Origin: a virus
Length of the DNA stretch: 32,625 nucleotides
Direction: 5' to 3' (one strand)
IMG/VR virus record: IMGVR_UViG_3300020410_000040
Span: 1 to 32,625 of that record
Below, one piece after another: positions 7,485 through 29,347 of the stretch. The position numbers and the translations under genes were made by a program. Each line of letters begins with the position of its first letter. Position 1 is the first letter of the stretch. The notes under the pieces are model-generated. The model was not told where the DNA came from and made no database searches. It saw only the letters and a list, made by a program, of their open reading frames with translations.

Positions 7485-8607
7485 TACGTTCTCCTATACC
7501 CCAATCAATTACAACAGGGAACCTAGGTATATTGTCTGGGGAACGTTCAAAATACCTACAAGTAACCCATGTTGGTTTCACTTCTTGTTCTAGTAGTGCC
7601 TTAAGTGTTTCTTGATTACCTCTAACACCACTCTTGAATGTATTAGTGCCGTCTGTAAGAACAAAGTGTTTAGCATACCCTGCCCAATTACCAGAACCTT
7701 CTAATACTTCTATAACATCAAACTCTTCTGTAATGAACTCTTTTCTTTTCAGTAAGTTCTTACTTCTTTTGTTTTCATATGGTTGATTGTTTCTAACCAT
7801 CTGTCCTTCGTAACCTTGTTCTGTCCATACAGAATACATTTCGTCTAGTTCTGTTTGACTGTTACAATATACAGTTTCTACAAATTGAAGAGGTTGTCTA
7901 TAATCTAGATTACCTATAACATCTTCTAAATGTAGATTGCCGTCTTCAAAGGAACAACCTTCCCATTCAGGACCTGTAATATCATATATGTGATATTGAA
8001 CAAGTTTGGCACATTCTTCTGCCTCTGCTTGTGTAGGTTTTACTTTTCTAACAAGACTTGTAATCTTGTTGAAGTCATCTCTTAGTTCGTGATTGTAAAG
8101 TTCACCATCTAAAATATCTGTAGGATTTTTCTCGAAGTAATCCTTAAGAGCATTGTGTATGTGATTGCAAGTTGTAATCTCTTTACCTGCTCTTGTAAAC
8201 AAACCATCTTTTCTGGCAATACATCTAATACCATCTAACTTTGGCTGACATATCATATCTAAAGCCATTTTTTGGCCTTCATTTAGTTTTGAATAGTCAT
8301 GTGCTAGTTGTGGCTTGAACTTGTCATAAGTATCAACAAGGTTGATATCTTCAAAGTATTCTTTTTCTGCTTTCTTGTCCCACATAGCCTTAGCTTCTTT
8401 TTGTGCTTGTTCAGCATCTGTAGTAGCATTTGCTTTGCCTGTGTTCTTGCCTACAGCATCTTTCCAGCCACTTGTAACTAGATTGCCGTCTTTTATACCT
8501 GCAATAGTTCTAGTAGCGTTCATTACGCCATTGGAATATTCTACTGTGAGCTCACGAATGTTTCCATTCGTGTCTCTTTTGTAAAGTGTTGGTAACCTAA
8601 ATATCAT
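7477..8607 (-). CDS. ATP-dependent DNA ligase
   Basis: 376 residues. It seals nicks during phage replication and recombination. Nucleotidyltransferase motif I is CQPKLDGIRC with the adenylated lysine K123, motif III is DILDGELYNH (E169), motif IV is YEGQMVRN (E267) and motif V is LLKRKEF (K287). An OB-fold-like C-terminus follows (EFDVIEVLEGSGNWAGYAKHFVL). An N-terminal segment of about 80 residues (MIFRLPTLYKRDTNGNIREL...) resembles the WGR-like extension seen on some phage ligases. It is a compact type, not the 487-residue T4 gp30 form. The start overlaps the upstream stop (TAATG). Transcribed from promoter A at 8996-9024. Confidence 0.9.
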   Translation of the reverse strand: MIFRLPTLYKRDTNGNIRELTVEYSNGVMNATRTIAGIKDGNLVTSGWKDAVGKNTGKANATTDAEQAQKEAKAMWDKKAEKEYFEDINLVDTYDKFKPQLAHDYSKLNEGQKMALDMICQPKLDGIRCIARKDGLFTRAGKEITTCNHIHNALKDYFEKNPTDILDGELYNHELRDDFNKITSLVRKVKPTQAEAEECAKLVQYHIYDITGPEWEGCSFEDGNLHLEDVIGNLDYRQPLQFVETVYCNSQTELDEMYSVWTEQGYEGQMVRNNQPYENKRSKNLLKRKEFITEEFDVIEVLEGSGNWAGYAKHFVLTDGTNTFKSGVRGNQETLKALLEQEVKPTWVTCRYFERSPDNIPRFPVVIDWGIGERND

Positions 8608-8960
8608 TATACAAAGCTCCCATCTCTTTTACCACCAGCGCAGTAACCAGACATATAACCAGGACCGTAAACAGTTCTTCTGTCTATGTCATAACCTTTG
8701 TATAAGTTACCTCTTGGTGAATTAAGAGCTGGAGCATTCCATCCTGCTGCCTTAAGAACATCACCTTCCATGAATCTTTCATGTGTTAAGTTGATGAAAC
8801 CCCAAACGCTTTGTTGTGGGTTCTGGATAATAATTTTTACAAATTTACGACCTGCTTTGTAAGTAACAGAGTAATCTGTAAGACTTGGGAAATCTGCAAA
8901 GTGTTGTTTTTCAATATCTTTACAAAGTTTCTCGATTTTTTCTTTTAGTTTATTTTCCAT
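8607..8960 (-). CDS. conserved phage hypothetical protein, 117 aa
   Basis: Contains VKIIIQNPQQSVWGFI, FMEGDVLKAAGWNAPALNSPRGNLYKG and YGPGYMSGYC. The GDxLKAAGW.APA.N..RGN pattern recurs in small hypothetical proteins of many phages; no biochemical role known to me. ATG 8960 has GAGG upstream. First gene behind promoter A and coupled to the ligase by a TAATG overlap. Confidence 0.75.
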   Translation of the reverse strand: MENKLKEKIEKLCKDIEKQHFADFPSLTDYSVTYKAGRKFVKIIIQNPQQSVWGFINLTHERFMEGDVLKAAGWNAPALNSPRGNLYKGYDIDRRTVYGPGYMSGYCAGGKRDGSFV

Positions 8961-8995
8961 AATTTTTAGTCCTCACTTTTTTAAATTATGTGTAT

Positions 8996-9024
8996 ATTAT
9001 GCACTCTTGAGGACCAAATGTCAA
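8996..9024 (-). promoter_or_regulatory. phage sigma70-type promoter, conserved-spacer family (A)
   Basis: TTGACA (9019-9024), 17 bp spacer with GGT at 4-6 and GTG at its end, CATAAT (8996-9001). Drives the 117-aa gene, ligase, 65-aa and 95-aa genes. Confidence 0.85.
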
Positions 9025-9067
9025 GCATTTTGTGCAAAAGATTTGAGTTGTAAGTGCTTGATTTTAC

Positions 9068-9382
9068 TTATGTTGTGGATATTGGACCAAGTTTTTTCCT
9101 TGCTTTTTTAACAATATTACGTTTTTTAACTGACAAAGCGTCTTTTTTGCCGTGTGTTTCTGCTAATGCACTGTGAGGATTGGCTTCAGATACTTTAGAT
9201 AATACCTCGTTGAAGCCTGCTGGAGGTTTTGTTCTATCTCCTGTGCCACCTATAAGTGCAGCACTTGTAATTACACCTTTTAGATTAGGATTTTCTTCTA
9301 GATATTCGTCTCTATCTTTTATAGACATAAACTTTTCAAATTGTTCACCTGTTTTGGTGTCTTCAAATACATAAGTTGGCAT
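9068..9382 (-). CDS. conserved T4-like phage protein (MPTYVF N-terminus), 104 aa
   Basis: Starts MPTYVFEDTKTGEQFEKFMS then IKDRDEYLEENPNLK, the same opening as a conserved small protein of T4-like cyanophages related to the N-terminus of FmdB-type proteins, but without the Cys pairs of the FmdB zinc ribbon. The C-terminus is very basic (KKRNIVKKARKKLG). Start ATG 9382 overlaps the previous stop (TGATG). It is the last gene of the long operon that begins at 18325. Function unknown. Confidence 0.7.
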   Translation of the reverse strand: MPTYVFEDTKTGEQFEKFMSIKDRDEYLEENPNLKGVITSAALIGGTGDRTKPPAGFNEVLSKVSEANPHSALAETHGKKDALSVKKRNIVKKARKKLGPISTT

Positions 9383-9672
9383 CAATGTTTTACTGCTGGT
9401 ATAGCAATCTCCTCCATATTATCAATTATCTTCATCAGTATTTTCTTTGCTACTGTAGATAACAATTCACTATTATATGCCCTTAACATACACTCTTTGA
9501 TGTATAAAGGGTCTAATTGTTTTAACATAGCTCTGTCATATTTCTTATATGAAAAACCATAAACATTTAAACATAATAAAGCCAAGTCTATTTCTTTTTC
9601 ATTATAGAAAGACATTCTGTAACCTTGTATCACCTTAGGCTCCTGTGTTGGAAATTTTATTACATTGTCCAT
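9382..9672 (-). CDS. hypothetical protein, 96 aa
   Basis: Starts MDNVIKFPTQEPKVIQGYRM; mostly helical with a FSYKKYDRAMLKQLDPLYIKE segment. No family recognised. ATG 9672 is preferred over an upstream ATG at 9690 because a TATAAGTA late-like box ends 5 bases before it and would lie inside the longer version. No clear Shine-Dalgarno. It follows the 445-aa radical SAM gene by 18 bases and overlaps the next gene. Confidence 0.6.
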   Translation of the reverse strand: MDNVIKFPTQEPKVIQGYRMSFYNEKEIDLALLCLNVYGFSYKKYDRAMLKQLDPLYIKECMLRAYNSELLSTVAKKILMKIIDNMEEIAIPAVKH

Positions 9673-9677
9673 ATTAC

Positions 9678-9685
9678 TACTTATA
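9678..9685 (-). promoter_or_regulatory. late-promoter-like box before the 96-aa gene
   Basis: Minus strand TATAAGTA, one change from TATAAATA, ending 5 bases before ATG 9672. Predicts a transcript starting at the AUG. Confidence 0.35.
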
Positions 9686-9690
9686 AGCAA

Positions 9691-11028
9691 TTAATTATCT
9701 ACAGGGACAATAGGTATTGTATTTTTAACACTATATGCCTCTGTAGGTTCCGTAACATATTTATTCAATATTGGCTCATATTCTGGGACAACGGTAAACA
9801 AGTCTTCCTTTCTAAACTTGTCTAATGCTATGTTTTTAGACAAAAAGTATTTGAACGTTTCCTCATCTACTCCTGGTTGCCTCATATAATTTATGAAACC
9901 ATCTATATCATCTTTATACATACCCCAATCTCTTACATTACCTTTGTCATCGTATAACCATCTATGTTCTATAAATTCTTTTAATTCTGGAGGAGCATAT
10001 CGTAATGTCATCCATTCAGGAAAGTAAACTAAATTGTTCCATATTTTAAATGCTGGGAAAGCATGTTTAACTAACTCATGTATTCTAGTAAGCTCTAAAG
10101 CATTTACCCAACTTAATGTAAATGAAACTTGAACAGAAAATTGAATGTTTTTATGGTTATCATAAAATATACCATCTCTATATGATTCTTCTGTATAGTG
10201 TTGTCCTCTATATTCTCTAACCAAGTCATGATACTTTCTCATGTTTTCATATACTTTATCCCACTTGCCTAATTTTCTCATATAGTTGTATGGTTCGTTC
10301 ATTCCATCAATACTCAAACCTATACCTACACGTTTAAAATTTTCTGCCCAATATCTAACTTTGTCTTCTAAAAATATATTAGCATTTGTAGACATGTCTA
10401 ATACTATATCTTTTGCATAACCTAGTTGTATAAGTTCATCAAACATTTGATGCCATTGTTTAATATACATAGGCTCACCACCTACTACTTCTAGTCTTTT
10501 TAAAGTTTTATACCAATTGAATCTATCCTTCCATAAAACACCTTCTTCATCTCCTGCTTGTTTGTGAGGCATAGGATAGCCATTGTCTACATGATACTTC
10601 TCATGTTCTAATTGCCATTGAGAACTGTGACTAGGTGTGCATGAACGACATTTTAAATTACAGCTGTTACTAAGAATTAATTGGAAGTCATAAGGTGTGG
10701 TGGGTTCGTCTTCCCAATGTAATTCTGTTCTTAAATCTGGGAATACATATTCGTTAAATATATTTCTTTTACTCTGCCTACCATGTTTTTCATCTTCCCA
10801 ACAAGTTGCACATTCATCAGGACGTTCTCCTTTTCTAAATTTGTCCCTTACATTTTTCATATAATCACTAGCAAATAAATCTTTTAATGAATGTTCTTGG
10901 ACATACATGTCTTTACCATCATTGTCTTTTATAGTATCTCTATATAAACAACAAGGGCGAACGGTTCCGTCAGGATTATTACTAACTCCTGCCCAAGGCA
11001 TGTAACATAAACTTTTAGGCTTTTTCAC
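9691..11028 (-). CDS. radical SAM protein 4 (twitch type)
   Basis: 445 residues. The radical SAM cluster motif is NSCNLKCRSCTPSHSSQW (C123, C127, C130), followed by a GGEP motif (EVVGGEPMYIKQW) for SAM binding. The N-terminus has further cysteines in the pattern C8..PW, C26-C27 and C73xxC76W, suggesting an auxiliary Fe-S cluster placed before the radical SAM core rather than after it as in SPASM proteins. GTG start at 11028 with AAGGAAAG upstream; overlaps the previous gene by 14 bases. It is the most divergent of the four tandem paralogues. Substrate unknown. Similar radical SAM genes occur in marine T4-like phages without assigned function. Confidence 0.85.
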   Translation of the reverse strand: MKKPKSLCYMPWAGVSNNPDGTVRPCCLYRDTIKDNDGKDMYVQEHSLKDLFASDYMKNVRDKFRKGERPDECATCWEDEKHGRQSKRNIFNEYVFPDLRTELHWEDEPTTPYDFQLILSNSCNLKCRSCTPSHSSQWQLEHEKYHVDNGYPMPHKQAGDEEGVLWKDRFNWYKTLKRLEVVGGEPMYIKQWHQMFDELIQLGYAKDIVLDMSTNANIFLEDKVRYWAENFKRVGIGLSIDGMNEPYNYMRKLGKWDKVYENMRKYHDLVREYRGQHYTEESYRDGIFYDNHKNIQFSVQVSFTLSWVNALELTRIHELVKHAFPAFKIWNNLVYFPEWMTLRYAPPELKEFIEHRWLYDDKGNVRDWGMYKDDIDGFINYMRQPGVDEETFKYFLSKNIALDKFRKEDLFTVVPEYEPILNKYVTEPTEAYSVKNTIPIVPVDN

Positions 11029-12481
11029 AATCTTTCCTTACTGAGTTTATCCAATGTCTATAACGTGGGTCTAGTTTTTCATATAGAGCTTGTTTGTTTC
11101 TTCTTATAAGATATTGATCTAAAAATTTTATCATATCTTTATGCACGTCAATTTGTTGGTGCATCATATCCTGCCACTTTGATTGTCTTAAGAAGTTTAC
11201 ATGATTTTTTATTATTCCCTTTGTATTAGTATCCTGAAGATGTGTTAAAGAAGGTAGTAGTTCTTCTATTTCGTCTGCAAGTTCTTCTCTATAATGTAGA
11301 GGTATAAGTTGAACTTGATGAAACTGTGGGTGGAATACTCTGTTAGAATTTATATGTATTCTATGATTGCCATAATCTTTTCTTAATATGTTTATTCTTT
11401 TTAAATAATCTATATAAGACCATACTGACATATTGTTTATTGCAGTTGTAATAGTTAAACTTATCTCACTTGTTTCTAAAACTTTTCTTATGTTGTCTTG
11501 CCATATACCTCTAACAAAACCATCTCTTGTAAACTCTGCTTGGTCCATATTGCTTTCTGCGCTTGTATGTATTTCAACAATTCTATTATATTTACTTCCA
11601 AGCTTGTGTCTTTTAAGGCCTTTTTCCATATCATAATTATCTCCTGTGCCTTTCCACAAAAATTTAGATGACTCTATAAATCTTTCTACTTGTCCTTTGT
11701 GGTGTATCATATTGGAGTTTACTATTAAAGAACCTTCATAAGTTTTTTGTTCATGTATCATATCCATAAACTCCCAGAATTTTATATGTAGTAAAGGCTC
11801 TCCTCCTGTAAAACGTATAACTTTTAAATGCCCTTGTAATGTTGGCCACCAATCAAAAAATGCTTGTATATAAGGATTGTCTTCTTCTTTATATAATTGT
11901 TGTTTCCAATCTTTATTGAATCTATCATTTGTCTTTAGTTCATATGAACCATGTTTTTTAATATCATTAGCCCACGTTGTGCTAAACTTTGGTTCACAAT
12001 AAGAACATGCTAAATTACATGTTCTGTCAAATGCTATTTCTAATTTTTGAGGAATAGGATGATCTGTTTTTCTAGATGTAGCAATTAAGTTTGTGTCATC
12101 TTCTGGCAGTTGTCCATCTAGATAACCTTTAGATTTATATACTCTATCACTTATAACACCCATATCCTCAGCATTCCAACAATACCTACAACCTTCAGGT
12201 TTTTCTCCTTTACGCATTTTATTACGTTCATGTATCTTTTCAGGTGTGTTATGTAATGAACCTGGAGCCTTTGGGTCAAGTTGTATTTTATGTGTAGGAT
12301 TATGATGACAGCTTGCAGTATGTCCTATGTATAACCACATAGTTGCTTCATACCATTTTGCAAGACAATAAGAATCAGATACAGGGTCTAGAAATTCCTT
12401 TTTAAAATCTTCAGGAGTTTTATTTAAAAGTTTTTGCTTGTCGGCAATATACTTATTTAATCTAGAATGTTTTATTGCCAC
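11015..12481 (-). CDS. radical SAM protein 3 (twitch type)
   Basis: 488 residues. Core motif DRTCNLACSYCEPKFSTTW (C155, C159, C162) and RFTGGEPLLHIKFW. N-terminal module YCLAKWYEATMWL..TASCHHNPTHKI..KPEGCRYCW with C39, C58, C98 and C101 as likely auxiliary cluster ligands. GTG start with AGAGGAAT upstream; overlaps the previous gene by 20 bases. Closely paralogous to radical SAM 1 and 2 (shared C.AKW, SCHHPP, LHNT and C.YCW...SDR blocks). Substrate unknown. Confidence 0.88.
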   Translation of the reverse strand: MAIKHSRLNKYIADKQKLLNKTPEDFKKEFLDPVSDSYCLAKWYEATMWLYIGHTASCHHNPTHKIQLDPKAPGSLHNTPEKIHERNKMRKGEKPEGCRYCWNAEDMGVISDRVYKSKGYLDGQLPEDDTNLIATSRKTDHPIPQKLEIAFDRTCNLACSYCEPKFSTTWANDIKKHGSYELKTNDRFNKDWKQQLYKEEDNPYIQAFFDWWPTLQGHLKVIRFTGGEPLLHIKFWEFMDMIHEQKTYEGSLIVNSNMIHHKGQVERFIESSKFLWKGTGDNYDMEKGLKRHKLGSKYNRIVEIHTSAESNMDQAEFTRDGFVRGIWQDNIRKVLETSEISLTITTAINNMSVWSYIDYLKRINILRKDYGNHRIHINSNRVFHPQFHQVQLIPLHYREELADEIEELLPSLTHLQDTNTKGIIKNHVNFLRQSKWQDMMHQQIDVHKDMIKFLDQYLIRRNKQALYEKLDPRYRHWINSVRKDCEKA

Positions 12482-14009
12482 TTTTTAATTCCTCTGAAAT
12501 GTATCCACCTCCTTTCTTAAATTCATCTAGTTCTGCACCTGACTGATATTTATCAAGAACTTCTAGTTCATCTGAATTTTCAAGGATTTGAGTCACTGTA
12601 GGTATAATTAAAGAAGTGTCAATGCTGTCATAAAAATTTATAAAGTCCTGAGGGAATGTGTCCCTAAAACTTTTACCTCTTCGTATATCATACTGATAAT
12701 AAAATTGTTTGAAGTCGTTATATAACTTCGGTGTCTCTGCTGTCATTTGATGTGGTGTTTTTACAATATCTAAATAATCAATTAATCTTTCTACTTGAGA
12801 TATTTCCCAATCATTTACTAGAGGTTTACCATTAGGATCTTTATCTGTCCAACGGTTCTTGACAACAGGTTCTAACCATGCCTCTAGTTTTTCTTTGTAA
12901 TGTGTTTTCATTTCCTCAGGCAATATAGCTGCTGCTTGGAAACTAGGAAATCTTAATATGTTTAATGATATTGTTAGGTATTGTGTTCCGTATTGTCTTT
13001 TTATATCTAAAGACTCTGTTAGAAACTCTGTAAGACTGCCTAAGCATAGACTATTAATTGTCCCCATACAAATTATTTGATTAATGTTTCCTTCTGTAAT
13101 TAATCGTATAACATTTTCTTTCCATTGTTTGTAGTCCATGCCATCTCTAATATATTCAGAATGAGGACCTACAGATTCGTTACTTGTATAGATGTCTAAG
13201 TGAGGAACATAATGACTCATTTCAATTAGTTTATCTAATAGTTTTTTCTTAGGAACAAGATTAGAGTTTATAGCATATCTTAATCTTGATGCTTTATCAG
13301 GATTGTCTTTGAACCAATCAAATAGTTTCCATACACCTGCTGCCATTAGTGGCTCGCCACCTGTTATTCTTATTTCTTCTAAACTGTATTGTAAGTCTGT
13401 TTCCCACCATTTCCAAAAAGCTTGTATGTATGGATTTTCTTCTTGTGTTTTAGCTGCGTCCTTAGCATGATCTGCTGCTGTAACATAATGTCCTCTACCA
13501 TCACTTTGTATATTCTTGTAACCCCCATACTTTTTAATATCTTTTACCCACGTGGAACTAAAAGAAGGATTACAATAAGAGCATGAGAAATTACATGTTC
13601 TATCAAAACTTATTTCTAATGTTTTAAGTGTAACGTCCTCATCGCCATTCATTGCCGCTGCTTTTAAATTATCTTCATTGGAAAATGTTTTTGTTTTCAT
13701 AACTCTATCTGAGATATGATCTTTACCCATGTCTTCTATTTTCCAACAATACTCACATTCATTAGGACGAACACCGTTAAGCATCATCTTACGCATTTCT
13801 TTTTTGTGTTTTGTATTGTGTATGGCAGACGGATTAGTTTTTATTTCTTCTAAGTCTATAGGATGCGAAGGTGGGTGGTGACAGCTTGTAGTCTGCCCAT
13901 GTCCTAACCATATTGTAGCGTTATACCACTTTGCACCACAATAGGTAGGACCTATTTGATCTATAAAATTAAATTTATAGTCGTGTATAATACTTTTGCC
14001 TTTAGCCAT
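12462..14009 (-). CDS. radical SAM protein 2 (twitch type)
   Basis: 515 residues. Core motif DRTCNFSCSYCNPSFSSTW (C139, C143, C146) and RITGGEPLMAAGVW. N-terminal C24, C43 (TSCHHPPSHPI), C85 and C88 (CEYCWKIEDMG). A C-terminal tail of about 50 residues beyond the paralogues is acidic, then Gly-rich. ATG 14009 overlaps the preceding gene by 8 bases. Like its neighbours it keeps the SDRVMKTK block between the auxiliary module and the core. Substrate unknown. Confidence 0.88.
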   Translation of the reverse strand: MAKGKSIIHDYKFNFIDQIGPTYCGAKWYNATIWLGHGQTTSCHHPPSHPIDLEEIKTNPSAIHNTKHKKEMRKMMLNGVRPNECEYCWKIEDMGKDHISDRVMKTKTFSNEDNLKAAAMNGDEDVTLKTLEISFDRTCNFSCSYCNPSFSSTWVKDIKKYGGYKNIQSDGRGHYVTAADHAKDAAKTQEENPYIQAFWKWWETDLQYSLEEIRITGGEPLMAAGVWKLFDWFKDNPDKASRLRYAINSNLVPKKKLLDKLIEMSHYVPHLDIYTSNESVGPHSEYIRDGMDYKQWKENVIRLITEGNINQIICMGTINSLCLGSLTEFLTESLDIKRQYGTQYLTISLNILRFPSFQAAAILPEEMKTHYKEKLEAWLEPVVKNRWTDKDPNGKPLVNDWEISQVERLIDYLDIVKTPHQMTAETPKLYNDFKQFYYQYDIRRGKSFRDTFPQDFINFYDSIDTSLIIPTVTQILENSDELEVLDKYQSGAELDEFKKGGGYISEELKSGNKTF

Positions 14010-15459
14010 TTATATTCTCACATTCATCTATAAAGTCCTTAAACTCTGGAAAGGACTCTCGTAAATTTGTTCCTTGTCTTCTATCTTTTTCTTTGAAGTA
14101 TTCTATAAAGTTTACTTTCGCAGATTTATCTAATGCAGGTTCAAAAGGTTCTATAGCCCAGTCGTATAATCTCCTGAGCTTATCTATTTCATAATCCTTA
14201 AAACCTTTAAACCTATTAGATTGTGTTTCTTTATTTTGTTCCATAAACACAATACACTCTAACAAAGGCTCTAACATTTCTGGAGTAGCCAATTTAAGAC
14301 TCATCCATTTAGGGTCATGTAACATAGGCGTATCAAACCATATTAACTGCCTATCTGTATTTATTTCGTTACGAAGTTGGTGTATATTCTCCATATACTC
14401 TACAACACCAGGTAATGAAAATATATTCATTGTAGCAATGAATGTTAAACTGTGCATTTCATTTTGTGTTAGATATGTTCTAATATTCTTTTCTAATGTA
14501 GGGAAATGTAATCCTGATCTAATATATTCTGCTTGATGTCCCCATGAATCTAAACTACAAAATAACATAAAATGATCTATTGCTTTTTTGTCTGTAATAT
14601 CTTTTAGATCTGTCATAAAGTTATCCCACAATTCTTGTTTAGGAGGATTGCAGTTACTTGTAATACTTAATTGTAATTTAGGAGAAGGATTGTTCTTTAC
14701 ATAATCAAAGATCTTAAATGTGTTTTTATCCATTAGAGGTTCGCCACCTGTCATACGAAATGTTTGTAGTTCAGGATAACACTCAGGAAAATATTCCCAG
14801 AACGCTTCTAGATAAGGATTGTCAGGTCTATTGTTAGGCATCATGCCATCTCTTTCCATCCAAGATGTATCGTTGTGATGTCCTGTAGGTAATTTATATG
14901 CACCATGTTTTCTTATTTCTTTGTGCCATTCTGTAGACAAGTGAGGACTACAATAGGTGCATTTAAAATTACATGCCTGATTAAAATTAACTTCCATGTA
15001 TTTAGGTTTAGGATTACCTGTATGTCCGTGTTCTAATGCCTCAGCAATAATGCCTTCTTGGTTGACATCAAAACTTCTGTAAGGTCTGTCTGATACATTG
15101 CCTTGATCTTCTATATCCCAACAAAAAGAACATTCAGGAGGCCTTTCTCCTTTCAACATCATTAGTCGTTGTTTCTTTTTGTGTTCTGTATTGTGTAAAG
15201 CATGAGCATTCTTTTCTAACTCTGCCATTGGTATTCTGTGAACAGGAGGGTGATAACAGGATTGTGTTCTGCCTGTAGGTATATGTATGCTTACGTTGAA
15301 CCACTTTGCAAGACAAAAAGAAGGCGAAACTTTATTTAAAGCATCTCCCATTTCCTTGGTGTCGTTAAAATAAACTGATTTGTATGCGCCTTCTAAATCT
15401 GCCTTAACTTCATCACCACGAATATCTTCATGTAGTTCTAGTATGTTTATCTTTTCCAT
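14002..15459 (-). CDS. radical SAM protein 1 (twitch type)
   Basis: 485 residues. Core motif NQACNFKCTYCSPHLSTEWH (C163, C167, C170) and RMTGGEPLMDKNTF (TGGEP, 237-241). N-terminal auxiliary-cluster candidates C49, C68 (QSCYHPPVHRI), C110 and C113 (CSFCWDIEDQG). It starts 3 bases after the methyltransferase-like gene ends. First of four tandem paralogues in transcription order, so probably the start of the enzyme series. Substrate unknown. Confidence 0.88.
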   Translation of the reverse strand: MEKINILELHEDIRGDEVKADLEGAYKSVYFNDTKEMGDALNKVSPSFCLAKWFNVSIHIPTGRTQSCYHPPVHRIPMAELEKNAHALHNTEHKKKQRLMMLKGERPPECSFCWDIEDQGNVSDRPYRSFDVNQEGIIAEALEHGHTGNPKPKYMEVNFNQACNFKCTYCSPHLSTEWHKEIRKHGAYKLPTGHHNDTSWMERDGMMPNNRPDNPYLEAFWEYFPECYPELQTFRMTGGEPLMDKNTFKIFDYVKNNPSPKLQLSITSNCNPPKQELWDNFMTDLKDITDKKAIDHFMLFCSLDSWGHQAEYIRSGLHFPTLEKNIRTYLTQNEMHSLTFIATMNIFSLPGVVEYMENIHQLRNEINTDRQLIWFDTPMLHDPKWMSLKLATPEMLEPLLECIVFMEQNKETQSNRFKGFKDYEIDKLRRLYDWAIEPFEPALDKSAKVNFIEYFKEKDRRQGTNLRESFPEFKDFIDECENING

Positions 15460-15462
15460 TTA

Positions 15463-16077
15463 TCACTTTTTACCAATCCCCATAAACCTTTTGTAATATG
15501 TGGGCTTGTCTTCTTTCATATTCCAAGGACCTTCATAAGTGACTTCATCTAAATAATTAAAGTTGTGGTCCATCTTATTAATGGATGCAAACATATTTAA
15601 ATCTTCACAGGCTCTAACATGATCTTTATGAGTGTAATCGTTATTACCTTGTATAATATAATAAGTTCCTTCTGGAATCTTTTCAAACCACTTGTCATAT
15701 ACTTCCTGACTTATGTGTTCTGTAATTGTATTTATTACTAAATCAGGAGGGTTGTTTGAGCCATCTAAATGTGTATTGTAATCATAATCAGATAAACAAC
15801 CTTGCCAGACAGGATAATTTTTCTCACACCAGTCTAAATATTTTCTCTCTTTGTCAACGCATACAGTTACAGGTATTCTTAACATGTCTGCTAAGACACC
15901 ATACCAACAACCAAATATAACGCATGAATGAGGTAAATCCATGTATGTTTGAAACTCTAATTTATCTGCTATCCAAGACTTACTTTTTATCTGACTAGGC
16001 CAAAAAGCTTCTATTGCGTCATCATGTGTTCTTACCAACTCCATCCAATGTGTTAGTTGTGTTTCTCCAAATCTCAT
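15463..16077 (-). CDS. SAM methyltransferase-like protein
   Basis: 204 residues. SCVIFGCWYGVLADML is a Rossmann motif-I-like segment, VCVDKERKYLDWCEKN fits the acidic SAM-ribose contact after strand 2, DLVINTITEHIS fits motif IV and WFEKIPEGTYYIIQGNND fits motif VI. Motif I is not the classic GxGxG (FGCWYG), so it may be a divergent methyltransferase or an inactive relative. ATGA overlap with the upstream GNAT gene and 3 bases from radical SAM 1, so it should be made in step with both. Confidence 0.65.
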   Translation of the reverse strand: MRFGETQLTHWMELVRTHDDAIEAFWPSQIKSKSWIADKLEFQTYMDLPHSCVIFGCWYGVLADMLRIPVTVCVDKERKYLDWCEKNYPVWQGCLSDYDYNTHLDGSNNPPDLVINTITEHISQEVYDKWFEKIPEGTYYIIQGNNDYTHKDHVRACEDLNMFASINKMDHNFNYLDEVTYEGPWNMKEDKPTYYKRFMGIGKK

Positions 16078-16652
16078 ACCATTCCTTTTTTAGGTTGCCA
16101 ATTAAATCCTTCTTCTGTTAGATCAATCCAATAAACATTTTGTAAATAGTGAGGTGCTAAAGGATCTACCATAAACATAAACCTTTCATCATATATAATA
16201 TTTTTCCAAAAAGTTTCTTCGTATGTATTGTTCCATAATTTCTCTGACTGTATTGTCTTTCGTTTGCCTTGATACGCATTATTTAGTGCTACATTACCAG
16301 GCTCTAAACTCCACCACATAACCTTAAAGCCCATTTCTTTGGCTCGTTTCATAAGTTGAGGTAACAGCACAAAACCTAGTTGATTGTTTCTAAACTCTTT
16401 TAGTATGTGATAACGACAAGCTCTTACAGCAATATCTTCATCTCCTGTATAATGACTAGGTTCTAAGTGTGCAATACCTGCAGGGCGTCCGTCCCATAGT
16501 ATAACCATGGTGTCTCCTGGTGTATTGTGTGGGTGGTATTTGTTATCGAAGGTTTCTCCGTTACCTTCTTCGTATGCTTGATTGATAATAATATCAATAC
16601 AGCCTAACAATCCTCTGTCTACTAATTGTTCTTTGTTGTAAATCTTATACAT
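16074..16652 (-). CDS. GNAT-like acetyltransferase
   Basis: 192 residues. TMVILWDGRPAGIAHLEP resembles the central GNAT strands, and RYHILKEFRNNQLGFVLLPQLMKRAKEMGFKVMWWSLEPGNVALNNAY fits the acetyl-CoA-binding helix and the C-terminal Asn-rich motif, with the usual Q/RxxGxG/A loop replaced by NNQLGF. Substrate unknown. It overlaps the hydroxylase gene upstream by 31 bases and the methyltransferase-like gene downstream by an ATGA. The assignment rests on fold-level pattern only. Confidence 0.55.
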   Translation of the reverse strand: MYKIYNKEQLVDRGLLGCIDIIINQAYEEGNGETFDNKYHPHNTPGDTMVILWDGRPAGIAHLEPSHYTGDEDIAVRACRYHILKEFRNNQLGFVLLPQLMKRAKEMGFKVMWWSLEPGNVALNNAYQGKRKTIQSEKLWNNTYEETFWKNIIYDERFMFMVDPLAPHYLQNVYWIDLTEEGFNWQPKKGMV

Positions 16653-17293
16653 TCAAAATCTCGTTGTCCTGCAACGCTCCCCATTAAATAATGTCTTAAA
16701 TCATTGCCTTTATGATAAACGGCATGTTGATATCCTATATTAAGAAAGTAACACTTTTTCATTTCCATTTCAACTACTTTATGCTCTCCATTATACCAAA
16801 AATGATTTTCAACACCTTTGTTGCCTGAGATAGGAATGATAAAACGCATAGCGTATGTAGTATTGTAATCTATGTGAGGTGGGACAACGCCCCCGGGAAA
16901 CATACGAGAGAAACGAACCCGTATCAGTTTATCTTGGAACGCGCTGTTTAAATGTGATTGCAATTTTGAACCTTTATAAAAATCAACGGGTTCGTTCCAA
17001 TTATGCTCATCCATTGAATACGGAATGCGCCTTGATAGTTTCTGTTTCGTTGAATAACTATCCGCACTATTTAGTTTTTCTGTTTTTTTGCACTCTGTTA
17101 AATGAAAGTGCTGAACATCTTTGTATGTATCATTAGCAATATTATTACTTGCTACTGCCAAACCCTTGTGTGCTGTTATGTTATCTTGCCACTTGTCATA
17201 GTGTTCCCATAGAAAATCTTCTATAAGGTTGTAATCTAAATCTATTGGAATTTGAGATATTGCTGGATAGTTTCTTTTGTTATACTTTAACAT
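16622..17293 (-). CDS. Asp/Asn beta-hydroxylase-like 2OG oxygenase
   Basis: 223 residues. The C-terminal half has the double-stranded beta-helix signature: RVRFSRMFPGGVVPPHIDYN (H140, D142), MRFIIPISGNKGVENHFWYNGE, CYFLNIGYQHAVYH (H190) and DLRHYLMG (R200). The HxD..H..R set fits the aspartyl/asparaginyl beta-hydroxylase group of 2-oxoglutarate Fe(II) dioxygenases. It may act on an amino-acid side chain or a small molecule. ATG 17293 is chosen because it overlaps the desaturase stop; a TTG three codons earlier is possible. Confidence 0.7.
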   Translation of the reverse strand: MLKYNKRNYPAISQIPIDLDYNLIEDFLWEHYDKWQDNITAHKGLAVASNNIANDTYKDVQHFHLTECKKTEKLNSADSYSTKQKLSRRIPYSMDEHNWNEPVDFYKGSKLQSHLNSAFQDKLIRVRFSRMFPGGVVPPHIDYNTTYAMRFIIPISGNKGVENHFWYNGEHKVVEMEMKKCYFLNIGYQHAVYHKGNDLRHYLMGSVAGQRDFECIRFTTKNN

Positions 17294-18023
17294 CTCGATC
17301 AATCATTCTAATAAGTTGTCCACCTATGTCTAATGGATGCCACACTACTTGACGATTGCCTTTTTCATGATGAACGTCATGAAAGCCTTCTCCAAGTGTA
17401 ATTAAACCTACCCACAAATCACTATGTGCTTCTTTGCCTCTGTGAGAATATGTAAATACCAATGAACCTATAAGTTTAGCAAAACCTGCTGGTATAAGCC
17501 AGGCATATAATAGACTATAAGGGTCTATAATAAAAAGTAATAAAGCCCAGACTAATATAACCTGCCAGTAATATCTAACTTGCGCTCTATGTAACTTTGA
17601 CCTTAATAGGTGCTTTGCAAATTTAAAATTTATATCTATCAATACTTGACCAAAGTATGCTAACATAAAACCACGATAGTGAGGGCTGTGTGGGTCTTTA
17701 GGTGTGTCTGCATACTTGTGATGTTCCCTATGATTTGCTACCCATGTTATAGCAGGACCTACCATCATTATATGTGCAAAGAATAATAACAAGTATTCTA
17801 TTGGTTTAGGACAATTAAAAGAATTATGAGAGTATAATCTGTGATACCCCATTGTAATACCTAACATGATACCACAATACATACCAAATGCTATTGTTGC
17901 TGTAACAGGTGTCCATGGAAAGAAGAATAAGGACGCAAGAGCCGACACTTGCGCCACAACCTGTCCTACAATTAATGTCAGAGGTGCCCAAGACTTATTT
18001 TGTTTGAATATTGCTTTTCTCAT
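17280..18023 (-). CDS. fatty-acid desaturase (membrane, three His boxes)
   Basis: 247 residues, acyl desaturase family. All three histidine boxes that hold the di-iron centre are present: HRLYSH (61-66), HREHH (98-102) and HDVHH (215-219), with transmembrane segments at about 15-60, 75-95 and 152-190. It would introduce a double bond into an acyl chain in the host inner membrane, changing lipids or making an unsaturated product. Desaturase genes are known in some cyanophages. It overlaps its neighbours by ATGA (upstream) and 14 bases (downstream). Being late and co-transcribed with radical SAM and hydroxylase genes, it may act in one pathway with them. Confidence 0.88.
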   Translation of the reverse strand: MRKAIFKQNKSWAPLTLIVGQVVAQVSALASLFFFPWTPVTATIAFGMYCGIMLGITMGYHRLYSHNSFNCPKPIEYLLLFFAHIMMVGPAITWVANHREHHKYADTPKDPHSPHYRGFMLAYFGQVLIDINFKFAKHLLRSKLHRAQVRYYWQVILVWALLLFIIDPYSLLYAWLIPAGFAKLIGSLVFTYSHRGKEAHSDLWVGLITLGEGFHDVHHEKGNRQVVWHPLDIGGQLIRMIDRDVKV

Positions 18024-18325
18024 TGATCTTTTCTATAATTTCTAAATCTACGAACAGACCCATCATAAAAAAGCATTTTCCACCAAGGTGTATCACGTCG
18101 CATTCGCGGTATCGTGTATTCATATGCCTCTCCTTCTGGTGATACCCATATGACATGATAACCTGCCCAACGTTTGGACGGATACCATACTGCTTTCCCA
18201 CCTTTAGTTATTAGTTTTTCTAATGTCCAAAAATAGCAGTTGTTTTTCTTAGTAAAGAGCCGGACCGGCCAACTCCAGAAAAATATCACCATAAGAAAGA
18301 ATGTCAATGCTAATCTCGCCTTCAC
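18020..18325 (-). CDS. small membrane-anchored protein, 101 aa
   Basis: An N-terminal hydrophobic anchor or signal (MKARLALTFFLMVIFFWSWPV) is followed by a soluble basic domain rich in Trp, Tyr and Arg (WYPSKRWAGYHVIWVSPEGE). No family recognised. GTG start at 18325 with AAGGA 8 bases upstream. First gene of the long operon, about 20 bases downstream of the expected late transcription start; its stop overlaps the desaturase start (ATGA). Confidence 0.65.
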   Translation of the reverse strand: MKARLALTFFLMVIFFWSWPVRLFTKKNNCYFWTLEKLITKGGKAVWYPSKRWAGYHVIWVSPEGEAYEYTIPRMRRDTPWWKMLFYDGSVRRFRNYRKDQ

Positions 18326-18348
18326 TCATCTGTTCCTTCTATATCTGA

Positions 18349-18356
18349 TATTTATA
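18349..18356 (-). promoter_or_regulatory. T4-type late promoter of the desaturase/radical SAM operon
   Basis: Minus strand TATAAATA, 23 bases before the GTG at 18325, with AAGGA in the short leader. It is the only clear promoter found before the 9.3 kb gene series. Confidence 0.7.
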
Positions 18357-18452
18357 AGCGCTTACATAGTAGCCCTTAATATCCATCTCATAGAGATTTA
18401 TAATGAAATTTAGACAGATTTGTGTTTATTGGTATTCAAACTGACCTTATCT

Positions 18453-18460
18453 TATAAATA
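18453..18460 (+). promoter_or_regulatory. T4-type late promoter of the exported-protein operon
   Basis: Plus strand TATAAATA about 93 bases before the ATG at 18554. With the minus-strand late box at 18349-18356 it forms a divergent late promoter region; I see no gene in 18326-18553. Confidence 0.7.
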
Positions 18461-18553: not shown

Positions 18554-19849
18554 ATGAAATTACAGAATTTAGCACTCTTAGGACTAGGTGCTTTACTATT
18601 AACTCTACCGGCTCAGGCCAACTCTAACCAGACGGGCACTTGTCAAGCTGGTTCTCAATATTGTGAGTCTGTCAATACAAACACGACGACTACCAATACT
18701 AACACGAATACGAACACGAATACTAACACGAACACCAATACAAATACCAATAACAATACGAATGTGAATACGAACACGAATACTAATACCTCGACAAATA
18801 CGAATACCAATACAAACAATAACACGACTGTTTACACAGGAACGAATACGAACACGAATAACAACAATAATACAAACGTGAACACTTCAACCTCTACGAA
18901 CACGAATAACAATAACAACAACACAACCTATAACGGAACGTCTACAAATACCAACAACAATAATAACAATACAAATTATACAGGTAATACGACTTCCAAC
19001 AATACAAACACTAATAACAATACGAATAATACTACTATTAATAGCACAAGTAATAATACAAATACTAATAACAACAATAGTAATATTAATCAAACTGTTA
19101 ATTCTACAAGTAATAATACGAATACAAACAATAATAACAACAATACGACTTCTAATAATACAAATAATAACTACAATGAGTCTAAATCAGACAGTAATGT
19201 AACTTCTAACAACACGAATACAAATAATAACACTAATAACAACACCAATAAGAACTATAACGAAACTAATCAGAAGATTACACAAGAGATAAAAAGTCCT
19301 CCACCTAGTGCTATTGCACCTAGTATTGGAGCTAGTTTCTCTCAAGACCTTTGCACCACAGGTGTAAGTGGAGCAGTTCAAACTCAATTGTTTGGTGTAG
19401 CAGCAGGTAAATCAGTAACAGATAAAAACTGTGAAAGAATAAAACTTTCTAAAACTGTATATGATATGGGAATGAAAGTAGCAGCTGTGTCGTTAATGTG
19501 TCAAGACGAAAGAGTGTTTGCAGCAATGGAAATGGCTGGAACACCATGTCCTTATATGGGTAAAATTGGAGCCGAGGCAGCAGAAGCTTGGGACATCAAC
19601 CCACAAGAAAGACCAGACTATGAAGCTTACATGGAACGTTTAGATAACCAAGCAGTAAGACAAAAACAATTAGTTAAACTAGAAGAAGCTATTGAAGATG
19701 ATAGAAAAGTAAAATTTGTAGCAGCTTGTAAAAAGACAAGACACTTATCAGGTGAACACAAAGGTATTAAAAAGTCAGGAAGGACTTGTAGGATAGAATG
19801 GGCAAACTTACAGAAAAACGAAGAGATTATAGAAGCATTAGAAGAGTAG
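18554..19849 (+). CDS. exported Asn/Thr-repeat phage protein
   Basis: 431 residues. A signal peptide (1-22, ending LLTLPAQA) is followed by a short Cys-containing segment, then about 200 residues made almost only of Asn and Thr (NTNT, NNNT) with scattered Ser, Gly and Tyr, then a compact C-terminal domain (from about 255). That domain holds CTTGVSGAVQTQLFGVAAGK, NCERIKLSKTVYDMGMKVAAVSLMCQ and GTPCPYMGKIGAEA. The C-terminal pattern recurs next to nidogen-like proteins in marine phages. Ribosome site GGAAGGA. Possibly a virion or envelope protein; function unknown. Confidence 0.75.
   Translation: MKLQNLALLGLGALLLTLPAQANSNQTGTCQAGSQYCESVNTNTTTTNTNTNTNTNTNTNTNTNTNNNTNVNTNTNTNTSTNTNTNTNNNTTVYTGTNTNTNNNNNTNVNTSTSTNTNNNNNNTTYNGTSTNTNNNNNNTNYTGNTTSNNTNTNNNTNNTTINSTSNNTNTNNNNSNINQTVNSTSNNTNTNNNNNNTTSNNTNNNYNESKSDSNVTSNNTNTNNNTNNNTNKNYNETNQKITQEIKSPPPSAIAPSIGASFSQDLCTTGVSGAVQTQLFGVAAGKSVTDKNCERIKLSKTVYDMGMKVAAVSLMCQDERVFAAMEMAGTPCPYMGKIGAEAAEAWDINPQERPDYEAYMERLDNQAVRQKQLVKLEEAIEDDRKVKFVAACKKTRHLSGEHKGIKKSGRTCRIEWANLQKNEEIIEALEE
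18671..19260 (+). repeat. Asn-Thr codon repeat tract
   Basis: About 590 bases of alternating ACN and AAY codons inside the exported protein. Early copies vary synonymously (ACG, ACC, ACA; AAT, AAC), so the tract is conserved for protein composition rather than as an exact DNA repeat. Confidence 0.9.
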
Positions 19850-22464: not shown

Positions 22465-22917
22465 ATGGCAGAAGTAGAATATAAGGGGATAAAGATAGGA
22501 GGCAGTAAGCTCCTACTAATACTTCCTTTACTAGGAACCCTAATAGGTGGCCTATGGGGAGGTTTTGAACTCTATAATCGTCTATTGATCGCAGAAAAGA
22601 AGCTAAATAATCTAAATCCAGCGGCCATACAAGCCGAGGTAGCACGTTTAGAATCCATGTATGATGTATTGGAGGGTTCAATGAGAGCAGACATAGATCT
22701 AGCTCTTAAAGAAGCTGAAGAAGCTCGAGACTATGCAAGAGATATAGATAAGACTTCCGCCGATACTAATAGAGACATTCGTAAGGACATGTATGCCATG
22801 GAACAAGAAATGCAAAAGCGTTTTAGAGAAATGGATGCAGACATTCGCGATAATAAGGCTGAATTAGAAGACAAAATTCAAACTGTATTAGAAAACCCAC
22901 TTAACGACGTAGAATAG
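22465..22917 (+). CDS. membrane-anchored coiled-coil protein, 150 aa
   Basis: One transmembrane segment (about 15-35, LLLILPLLGTLIGGLWGGFEL) is followed by a long charged helical region with heptad character (about 38-140). It starts 3 bases after the nidogen-like gene with AAGGAG upstream, and ends at a strong terminator. Probably works with the two exported proteins; similar short anchored coiled-coil genes follow nidogen-like genes in marine phages. No specific function known. Confidence 0.75.
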   Translation: MAEVEYKGIKIGGSKLLLILPLLGTLIGGLWGGFELYNRLLIAEKKLNNLNPAAIQAEVARLESMYDVLEGSMRADIDLALKEAEEARDYARDIDKTSADTNRDIRKDMYAMEQEMQKRFREMDADIRDNKAELEDKIQTVLENPLNDVE

Positions 22918-29118: not shown

Positions 29119-29347
29119 TTTCTACTCTATCTGCTATTTTGTTTAGCACCTTATCCATTTGTTCTAAATGATCTACAAATTCTATCTTATCACCAAAGAA
29201 ATGCATCGTTGTATAGCCTGCTCTGTTGCGTTTGCTCTTTACATAATCTACCATAGCTCCTGAGCCTTCACGCCAACCTATACGATAAGATGTGTATGCT
29301 AATCCTACACCACAAATTATAAAAATTAAATATTCTAATTCAGTCAT
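29087..29347 (-). CDS. small membrane protein, 86 aa
   Basis: MTELEYLIFIICGVGLAYTS is an N-terminal transmembrane segment, followed by a basic region and a helical C-terminus (FVDHLEQMDKVLNKIADRVE). Function unknown. ATG 29347 is set by the TAATG overlap with the radical SAM gene; a start 5 codons earlier lies inside that gene. Confidence 0.65.
   Translation of the reverse strand: MTELEYLIFIICGVGLAYTSYRIGWREGSGAMVDYVKSKRNRAGYTTMHFFGDKIEFVDHLEQMDKVLNKIADRVENETKNNSRKI

Follow-up and report, generated by a model that had tools for sequence, protein, structure and literature searches.

A virus genome stretch of 32,625 nucleotides (IMG/VR record IMGVR_UViG_3300020410_000040; hereafter, the window) carries an operon which may serve to remodel an LPS-like surface glycolipid or polysaccharide late in infection, a reading to which we assign a probability of about 0.45. 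In 5' to 3' order, a membrane protein is followed by a desaturase, an AspH-family oxygenase, a GNAT, a methyltransferase, four radical-SAM enzymes of the N_Twi_rSAM type and two small genes. The first-pass annotation had offered a virion protein, a host lipid or glycan, or a diffusible molecule as the target; it is a glycan or glycolipid that genomic context supports best. We agree with it that the operon does not serve nucleotide supply and that no named phage pathway fits.

Organisation of the operon

From 18325 to 9068 the minus strand is tiled by 11 ORFs (Table 1), the largest gap between neighbours being 3 bases, which bears out the earlier description of eleven compact genes of several chemistries. 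Neighbouring genes overlap by 4 (h18020/DESAT), 23 (DESAT/AspH), 31 (AspH/GNAT) and 4 bases (GNAT/MT); the 3-base gap, the only one in the operon, separates MT from rSAM4, and the overlaps then continue with 8 (rSAM4/rSAM3), 20 (rSAM3/rSAM2) and 14 bases (rSAM2/rSAM1). rSAM1 abuts h9382 with no gap, and h9382 overlaps the FmdB-like gene by 4 bases. These last two genes, which had been counted with the rest as one operon, probably lie outside the enzyme set, since each has its own TATAAATA in a 170-kb relative, G001, and h9382 persists in relatives lacking DESAT. Thus, the enzyme operon proper comprises nine genes, at about 9691-18325. Gene pairs between the window and its sister phage L006 gave dN/dS values of ~0.06-0.27 (dS being near saturation), which indicates that the operon genes are under purifying selection, as judged by sequence comparison.

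Neither the operon of the window nor that of any relative was seen to contain a scaffold-making gene (NRPS, PKS, ligase or precursor), and a pre-existing polymer or lipid is therefore the likely substrate. No glycosyltransferase lies within the operon of the window itself, which speaks against a surface glycolipid.

Table 1. Features of the operon and its flanks in the window
Feature	Position	Strand	Match or remark
FmdB-like zinc-ribbon regulator	9068..9385	-	phrog_385 transcriptional regulator, E=9e-18
h9382, conserved small gene	9382..9690	-	also in relatives without DESAT
rSAM1, N_Twi_rSAM enzyme with N-terminal Pfam SPASM	9691..11028	-	NF033640, 281 bits
rSAM2, N_Twi_rSAM enzyme	11015..12481	-	NF033640, 230 bits
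rSAM3, N_Twi_rSAM enzyme	12462..14009	-	NF033640, 305 bits
rSAM4, N_Twi_rSAM enzyme	14002..15459	-	NF033640, 305 bits
MT (family f16), class-I methyltransferase-like, directly 5' of rSAM array	15463..16077	-	
GNAT-family N-acyltransferase	16074..16652	-	PF00583
AspH-family 2OG-Fe(II) oxygenase	16622..17302	-	PF05118
DESAT, integral-membrane acyl desaturase	17280..18023	-	PF00487
h18020, first gene; 101 aa, single N-terminal hydrophobic segment	18020..18325	-	
TATAAATA, putative late promoter of operon	18349..18356	-	exact match, kept in relatives
ATGGATATTAAGG, element 5' of late promoter	18374..18386	-	in the window and several relatives
TATAAATA, putative late promoter of divergent gene	18453..18460	+	TATAAATA 5' of gene in 8/9 phages checked
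NT-rich secreted protein, divergent neighbour	18554..19849	+	signal peptide, long Asn/Thr repeat

The late promoter

TATAAATA occurs six times in the window against 5.5 expected, so it is not over-represented and carries little weight by itself. All the same, the motif is kept upstream of the operon in close relatives although the flanking DNA has changed, and lies 16-37 bases 5' of the first gene wherever that gene could be placed. L091 carries CATAAATA at this position in place of TATAAATA, and the divergent L094 has GATAAATA at -10. ATGGATATTAAGG is present in one copy in the window and one in G001. Of the 47 TATAAATA sites in G001, 23 lie 5-60 bases 5' of an ORF of 100 aa or more on the same strand, as against a mean of 2.2 and a maximum of 7 in 300 trials of random placement. 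Sigma-70-like sites are at chance level. ORFs preceded by the motif in G001 include those for tail sheath gp18, tube gp19, scaffold gp22, capsid gp23 and IscU, and the late assignment made at first pass therefore holds. The operon promoter is thus of a T4-type late class common to structural genes.

The desaturase module

h18020 shows 64-88% identity among close relatives, and a homologue (46%) adjoins DESAT-AspH in a phage free of radical-SAM genes, L093. DESAT matches the FA_desaturase family above the Pfam cut-off (E=2.5e-12) and acyl-CoA desaturase 1 by phmmer (4ymk, E=4.8e-14), has four hydrophobic segments, and its His boxes HRLYSH, HREHH and HDVHH are invariant among aligned homologues. 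The acyl-CoA desaturase matches favour a surface glycolipid as the target.

The oxygenase matches Asp_Arg_Hydrox (E=4.1e-8; 33.7 bits against a cut-off of 22.6), and H143-x-D145, H193 and R203, corresponding to the HxD...H motif and the 2OG-binding Arg, are invariant in 10 orthologues. phmmer found no solved structure for it, and a profile search returned one non-significant proline hydroxylase. Its AF2 model (pLDDT 81.9) has as Foldseek neighbours the nucleoside-antibiotic hydroxylase 7v4m (the nearest), human AspH and proline hydroxylases, with no lipid hydroxylase among the top hits; that these act on amino acids, peptides or nucleosides counts against a glycolipid. GNAT (E=6e-7) was aligned with four phage homologues.

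The methyltransferase and the radical-SAM array

MT has no Pfam, PHROG or NCBIfam match in the window protein; its earlier naming as a methyltransferase stands insofar as it looks, by eye, like a class-I enzyme, and lacks a curated family behind it. It recurs 5' of radical-SAM arrays in L006-L009, L011, L012 and other loci.

All four radical-SAM proteins exceed the N_Twi_rSAM cut-off (170 bits), scoring 230-305 bits over their full length. The CxxxCxxC motif (C139, C143, C146) and the N-terminal auxiliary-cluster cysteines (C24, C43, C85, C88) are intact in all four and conserved in at least 77 of 78 alignment rows. In rSAM1, SPASM spans residues 8-77 and Radical_SAM 118-269. The AF2 model of rSAM3 (pLDDT 89.7) gave SuiB, BlsE and anSME as top Foldseek hits at low TM-scores. 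Of these, SuiB and anSME are peptide enzymes whereas BlsE is a sugar-nucleoside enzyme, a mixture which tells against a glycan substrate; phmmer found no solved structure for rSAM3. Against named phages, tblastn returned nothing for rSAM3 or rSAM4 and 22-24% matches only, mostly in Vibrio phages, for rSAM1, whilst PHROGs gave weak radical-SAM names only. An antiviral role as prokaryotic viperin (pVip) was considered and rejected, as NF038283 reached no more than 35 bits (cut-off 180), compared with 281 for N_Twi_rSAM, and PADLOC gave only weak, partial pVip hits. Among operon proteins (ORFs of at least 60 aa), no PqqD-like or other RiPP family matched above cut-off.

The chemistry resembles natural-product tailoring, with 7v4m nearest to the AspH model and BlsE among the radical-SAM hits, and carbamoyltransferase and SGNH-like genes occur in relatives; the operon could on these grounds make or modify a small diffusible molecule or cofactor. 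We consider this rather improbable, given that none of the relatives' operons was seen to hold a scaffold synthase and that late expression leaves little time for a product to accumulate.

Distribution among phages

The question whether the set travels together, raised at first pass, can be answered from 12 further contigs (~10 distinct phages) in which it does so as a unit, and from a cultured SAR11 phage, Pelagibacter phage Mosig EXVC030M (MT647606), in which DESAT, AspH, GNAT and MT homologues co-occur at 25-34% identity (GNAT 34%, E=1e-28; MT, Mosig_00090, 25%, E=3e-8). The order h18020-DESAT-AspH-GNAT-MT-rSAM is kept in the ~10 distinct phages while the radical-SAM genes turn over. Comparison of loci nevertheless shows that the operon behaves as two recombining modules rather than as a single pathway: h18020-DESAT-AspH-GNAT and MT-rSAM array, each found without the other. 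Most of 79 radical-SAM loci have arrays without the desaturase set; DESAT-AspH occurs without an array in L092, L093, L106, L110 and others; and L007/L008, which lack DESAT, have an array nearer to that of the window than is the array of L102, where DESAT is present. Such independent recombination weakens the single-pathway reading and also counts against a common surface-glycolipid target.

That the modules occur and recombine apart would suit functionally unrelated auxiliary genes under a shared late promoter, with the desaturase acting on membrane fluidity and the array serving some other end; Roitman et al. 2018, cited in PMC11480375, are said to have described phage lipid desaturases on their own. 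The full gene order kept in ~10 distinct phages despite radical-SAM turnover, and the renewed meeting of the four homologues in Mosig, make this quite improbable.

The phage arrays co-occur with UDP-sugar dehydrogenase (22 loci), NeuB (12), carbamoyltransferase (34) and DegT aminotransferase families, and these sugar genes favour surface glycolipid remodelling. Likewise, among sister phages of the window, L101 has a UDP-sugar dehydrogenase inside the operon, L006 and G001 a carbamoyltransferase, and L096 and L102 a 4Fe-4S ferredoxin. In one viral collection, a single radical-SAM query matched 489 related stretches, at no more than 20 matches per contig. A genome scan by AspH alignment yielded one contig; its genes are 96-100% identical to those of L092/L093, so that it is phage sequence binned with a bacterium.

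Arrays also adjoin putative tail-fibre genes, which most of those in L013-L084 follow in a fixed order. In Mosig the AspH-GNAT-MT-desaturase run adjoins tail-fibre genes and is co-directional with them. Together with a promoter class shared with gp18, gp19, gp22 and gp23, this would fit enzymes that decorate the phage's own virion, glycosylating or otherwise modifying, say, its tail fibres or adhesins post-translationally and late. It is nevertheless doubtful, as the operon does not lie beside tail fibres in the lineage of the window, no virion protein suggests itself as the substrate of a membrane acyl desaturase, and host-directed genes, too, sit in phage tail-fibre islands. In G001, the gp18, gp19, gp22 and gp23 genes are ~60 kb from the operon.

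The NT-rich gene is the divergent neighbour in operon-bearing relatives whose upstream region is covered. The C-terminal domain of its product is common to SAR11 and Roseobacter phages. Its own late promoter, and a repeat that is long in operon-bearing phages but far shorter in Mosig and HTVC202P, would be in keeping with this secreted protein being the substrate, its Asn/Thr repeats hyper-modified by AspH, GNAT, MT and the radical-SAM enzymes before export. However, homologues also occur in small pelagiphages and in HTVC202P, around whose copy no such operon was seen, and common descent might be enough to account for the linkage; we rate this substrate as quite improbable. A curli/CsgG role for the divergent proteins was discarded, since CsgG is absent from the window and from its nearest relatives.

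Glycan context in bacteria

Sampling of bacteria was confined to Pseudomonadota, in which N_Twi_rSAM is rare (3/398 genomes, one of these from phage contigs). In G368, four tandem N_Twi_rSAM genes accompany Wzm, WbsX, a TylF methyltransferase, RmlC and RmlD in an O-antigen cluster, and one of the four joins ABC_tran, Wzt_C, SPASM and Radical_SAM in a single protein. This fusion of a Wzt O-antigen exporter to N_Twi_rSAM links the enzyme family to O-antigen assembly and favours a surface glycolipid as the target. The cluster (L148) resembles the operon in its tandem N_Twi_rSAM genes and methyltransferases, but is bacterial, has O-antigen export machinery and showed no desaturase, AspH or GNAT. 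Elsewhere, N_Twi_rSAM lies near GT2 and a nucleotide-sugar epimerase-like gene (G400) or is fused to an FkbM methyltransferase (G700), and GT2-type genes are nearby in G700 and G963. PqqD or HprK-like genes, found in 2/4 bacterial contexts, can mean peptide substrates and weigh against a glycan.

Comparison with known marine phages

Radical-SAM arrays, desaturase, AspH and glycan genes have already been reported in T4-like marine phages (PMC7029224, PMC5332604). In pelagimyophages, the host-recognition cluster is a variable island of radical-SAM genes, glycosyltransferases, UDP-sugar enzymes and tail fibres; AspH is core, and a freshwater group has a stearoyl-CoA desaturase (PMC7029224). The same study proposed that the pelagimyophage glycosyltransferases modify the host O-chain, a proposal that favours surface glycolipid remodelling. 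The window, too, comes from a T4-like marine phage with radical-SAM genes and AspH. However, the pelagimyophage cluster is flanked by VrlC and gp14 and includes tail fibres, whereas the operon, judged by neighbouring genes, sits elsewhere, between DNA ligase/gp33-gp59-gp32 and the NT-rich gene. No tail fibre was seen there, and a desaturase module is coupled to the radical-SAM array in fixed order. The Mosig island (54.7-69 kb) also has MoaA-like radical-SAM and carbamoyltransferase genes, but its gene order differs and its radical-SAM genes, as far as compared, differ in type from the N_Twi arrays.

Some T4-like environmental genomes are rich in Fe-S genes, among them TARA_ERS488813_N000010 with 12 radical-SAM genes (PMC5332604). 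Such genomes share IscU and an A-type carrier with G001, where iscU stands behind a late promoter with the carrier beside it, both adjoining the capsid gene; that account, in its accessible part, gives no operon structure, late promoter, glycan or N_Twi_rSAM link. The literature also holds a SAR86 IscU; clues to the host come only through neighbours, as with the SAR11 and Roseobacter phage homologues of the NT-rich protein.

Proposed role

From these contexts we infer a shared target of the two modules, an LPS-like glycolipid or polysaccharide in the envelope of the infected cell. h18020, the desaturase, AspH and GNAT would modify its acyl or aminoacyl part, whilst MT and the four distinct N_Twi_rSAM enzymes would introduce radical-based changes on sugar residues (for instance dehydrogenation, epimerisation or deoxygenation). 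The phage might benefit by keeping its progeny from re-adsorbing to debris and by shutting out rival phages.

A further suggestion, which we hold to be unlikely, is that an oxygen-sensitive radical-SAM pathway acts late and gives a host glycolipid, or else the phage's own NT-rich protein, a surface modification of a chemically new kind. Relatives have their own Fe-S assembly genes (IscU, A-type carrier) and a ferredoxin. If true, four radical enzymes would work in order on a single polymer, and no counterpart of such a viral tailoring pathway is known from cells.

Radical-SAM genes are common in ocean T4-like phages and so far unexplained. The Wzt link, together with the conserved late-type promoter, makes their function testable, be it with a SAR11 phage already in culture or with a laboratory strain that expresses the operon.

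Gene content of the operon

The window, a virus record of 32,625 bases from IMG/VR, carries genes of T4 type, encoding a gp32-like single-strand binding protein, a gp59-like helicase loader, a gp33-like late regulator, an exonuclease and DNA ligase. The first-pass annotation described an operon of eleven ORFs without a real gap, and this was borne out, the largest gap in the tiled strand being 3 bases. In order of transcription, the genes encode h18020, which has a single hydrophobic segment, an acyl desaturase, an Asp/Asn-hydroxylase-family 2OG oxygenase (AspH), a GNAT protein, a methyltransferase-like protein, four radical-SAM proteins (rSAM1-4), a small conserved protein and an FmdB-like regulator. 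All four radical-SAM proteins belong to the NCBIfam family N_Twi_rSAM (230-305 bits; membership threshold, 170 bits), and an alignment spanning 78 relatives in the family, diverging down to 17% identity, shows that all four have retained the three radical-SAM cysteines plus the four that belong to an N-terminal auxiliary cluster. The desaturase, which matches mammalian acyl-CoA desaturases, has three invariant His boxes, and AspH retains HxD...H and Arg. dN/dS against a phage relative (L006) is ~0.06-0.27, with dS near saturation. Judged by these motifs and ratios, the genes look like working genes. Phage lipid desaturases were reportedly described by Roitman et al. in 2018, as cited in PMC11480375.

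Coordinates of the operon and of other features discussed
Feature	Source	Position	Remarks
Operon	window	18325-9068 (-)	eleven ORFs
TATAAATA	window	18349-18356	late promoter motif
ATGGATATTAAGG	window	18374-18386	conserved
Asn/Thr-rich secreted protein	window	18554-19849 (+)	signal peptide, long Asn/Thr repeat
Second gene of three-gene set	window	19798-22461	
Third gene of three-gene set	window	22465-22917	
Further radical-SAM protein, other type	window	29347-30996	549 aa; three relatives in G001
IscU and A-type Fe-S carrier genes	G001 (L120)	89867-90594 (9867-10594)	directly 3' of major capsid gene
Wzt-radical-SAM fusion	L148 (G368)	8579-11101	single protein
Family f13 protein	L078	15004-16110	~370 aa

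Conservation of the gene set

The set does travel together: it recurs in 12 more contigs (~10 distinct phages) in the order h18020-desaturase-AspH-GNAT-(variable)-methyltransferase-radical-SAM array, but it is separable, its modules also being found apart. The desaturase set is absent from most of 79 radical-SAM loci, and several phages (L092, L093, L106, L110) have desaturase-AspH without the array. Two loci without the desaturase (L007, L008) have the four radical-SAM genes in the window's order (rSAM4 67%, rSAM3 64%), while in L102 these proteins are only 34-42% identical to the window's, yet the desaturase is 69% and AspH 80% identical. The operon is two modules recombining beneath a single late promoter, not one indivisible set. 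That these modules, found both together and apart, are unrelated passengers is very improbable. Relatives have gained a UDP-sugar dehydrogenase (L101), a carbamoyltransferase (L006, G001) or a ferredoxin (L096, L102). In the cultured SAR11 phage Mosig, four of the enzymes (desaturase, AspH, GNAT and methyltransferase) have homologues that occur together at 25-34% identity. They lie next to tail fibres, in the company of carbamoyltransferase genes and radical-SAM genes of MoaA-like type.

An Asn/Thr-rich secreted protein is encoded divergently from the operon in every set-bearing contig that includes the upstream region; it could be the enzymes' substrate, though the odds are heavily against this. 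Its C-terminal domain is conserved, contains Cys and is common to SAR11 and Roseobacter phages. The three-gene set to which it belongs is also present in Mosig and in podophage HTVC202P, where it directly precedes the terminase gene.

Promoter class

TATAAATA is not enriched by count within the window; its placement is what stands out. In close relatives whose first operon gene could be placed, it or a one-base variant lies 16-37 bases 5' of that gene, in DNA that is otherwise altered. G001 is a 170-kb phage relative that also carries the operon; of its 47 copies, 23 immediately precede an ORF (2.2 expected), and the genes behind them include those for the tail sheath and tube, the scaffold, the major capsid protein and IscU. 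The operon is therefore under the same class of promoter as capsid and tail genes. By inference from established T4 biology, these promoters would fire late. The operon's enzymes might decorate the virion, which we consider unlikely. iscU has its own late promoter in G001, and the A-type Fe-S carrier gene adjoins it. In several relatives the late promoter is preceded, at a distance of ~20 bases, by ATGGATATTAAGG, which could be the start of a tiny leader ORF (MDIK...) or a DNA element.

Radical-SAM family context

Phage arrays are common (489 related stretches with one query) and large (up to 20 matches on a single contig). Most lie downstream of putative tail-fibre genes, accompanied by UDP-sugar dehydrogenase, NeuB, carbamoyltransferase and DegT aminotransferase families. 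Family f13, often adjoining arrays and carbamoyltransferase (16 loci), had no match in a Pfam search. On phage-like contigs in a Rhodobacteraceae bin (L138, L139), N_Twi_rSAM is paired, by eye, with PP-loop ATPase-like, nitroreductase-like and f16-type methyltransferase-like genes.

Only 3 of 398 Pseudomonadota genomes had a match, one of them (G016) on phage-looking contigs. The other two are telling. G368 has four copies within an O-antigen cluster, one of them a single protein (ABC_tran, Wzt_C, SPASM, Radical_SAM) in which the O-antigen exporter ATPase Wzt is fused to N_Twi_rSAM. The copy in G400 has a GT2 gene and one resembling an epimerase in its vicinity. Sampling was then extended: in G700 the enzyme is fused to an FkbM methyltransferase, and both G700 and G963 have GT2-type genes nearby, but also PqqD/HprK-like genes, a possible sign of peptide substrates. 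The weight of genomic context favours sugars over peptides, without settling the matter. The structural models do not decide it: the predicted rSAM3 (pLDDT 89.7) is nearest to SuiB, BlsE and anSME, all at low TM-scores, and the predicted AspH (pLDDT 81.9) to a nucleoside-antibiotic hydroxylase, human AspH and proline hydroxylases. A small molecule as the operon's product is decidedly unlikely.

Possible function of the operon

The operon combines tailoring enzymes with a membrane desaturase, lacks any enzyme that would build a scaffold, and has late timing. Together these features suggest that it remodels a glycolipid already present on the infected cell's surface, a tentative reading to which we give a probability of about 0.45. 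The h18020-to-GNAT module would make acyl or aminoacyl changes, and the methyltransferase and four radical-SAM enzymes sugar changes. The likely gain for the phage would be reduced re-adsorption and superinfection; a similar gain has been suggested for the glycosyltransferases of pelagimyophages (PMC7029224).

T4-like marine genomes rich in radical-SAM and Fe-S genes have been published (PMC5332604). Pelagimyophage islands hold radical-SAM cassettes, glycosyltransferases and a core AspH (PMC7029224); in contrast, the window's ordered late operon stands outside the tail-fibre island. In open-licence full texts, no prior description was found of such an operon, of a late promoter shared by operon and iscU, or of the Wzt-radical-SAM fusion. 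This fusion hints at the substrate of the N_Twi_rSAM family.
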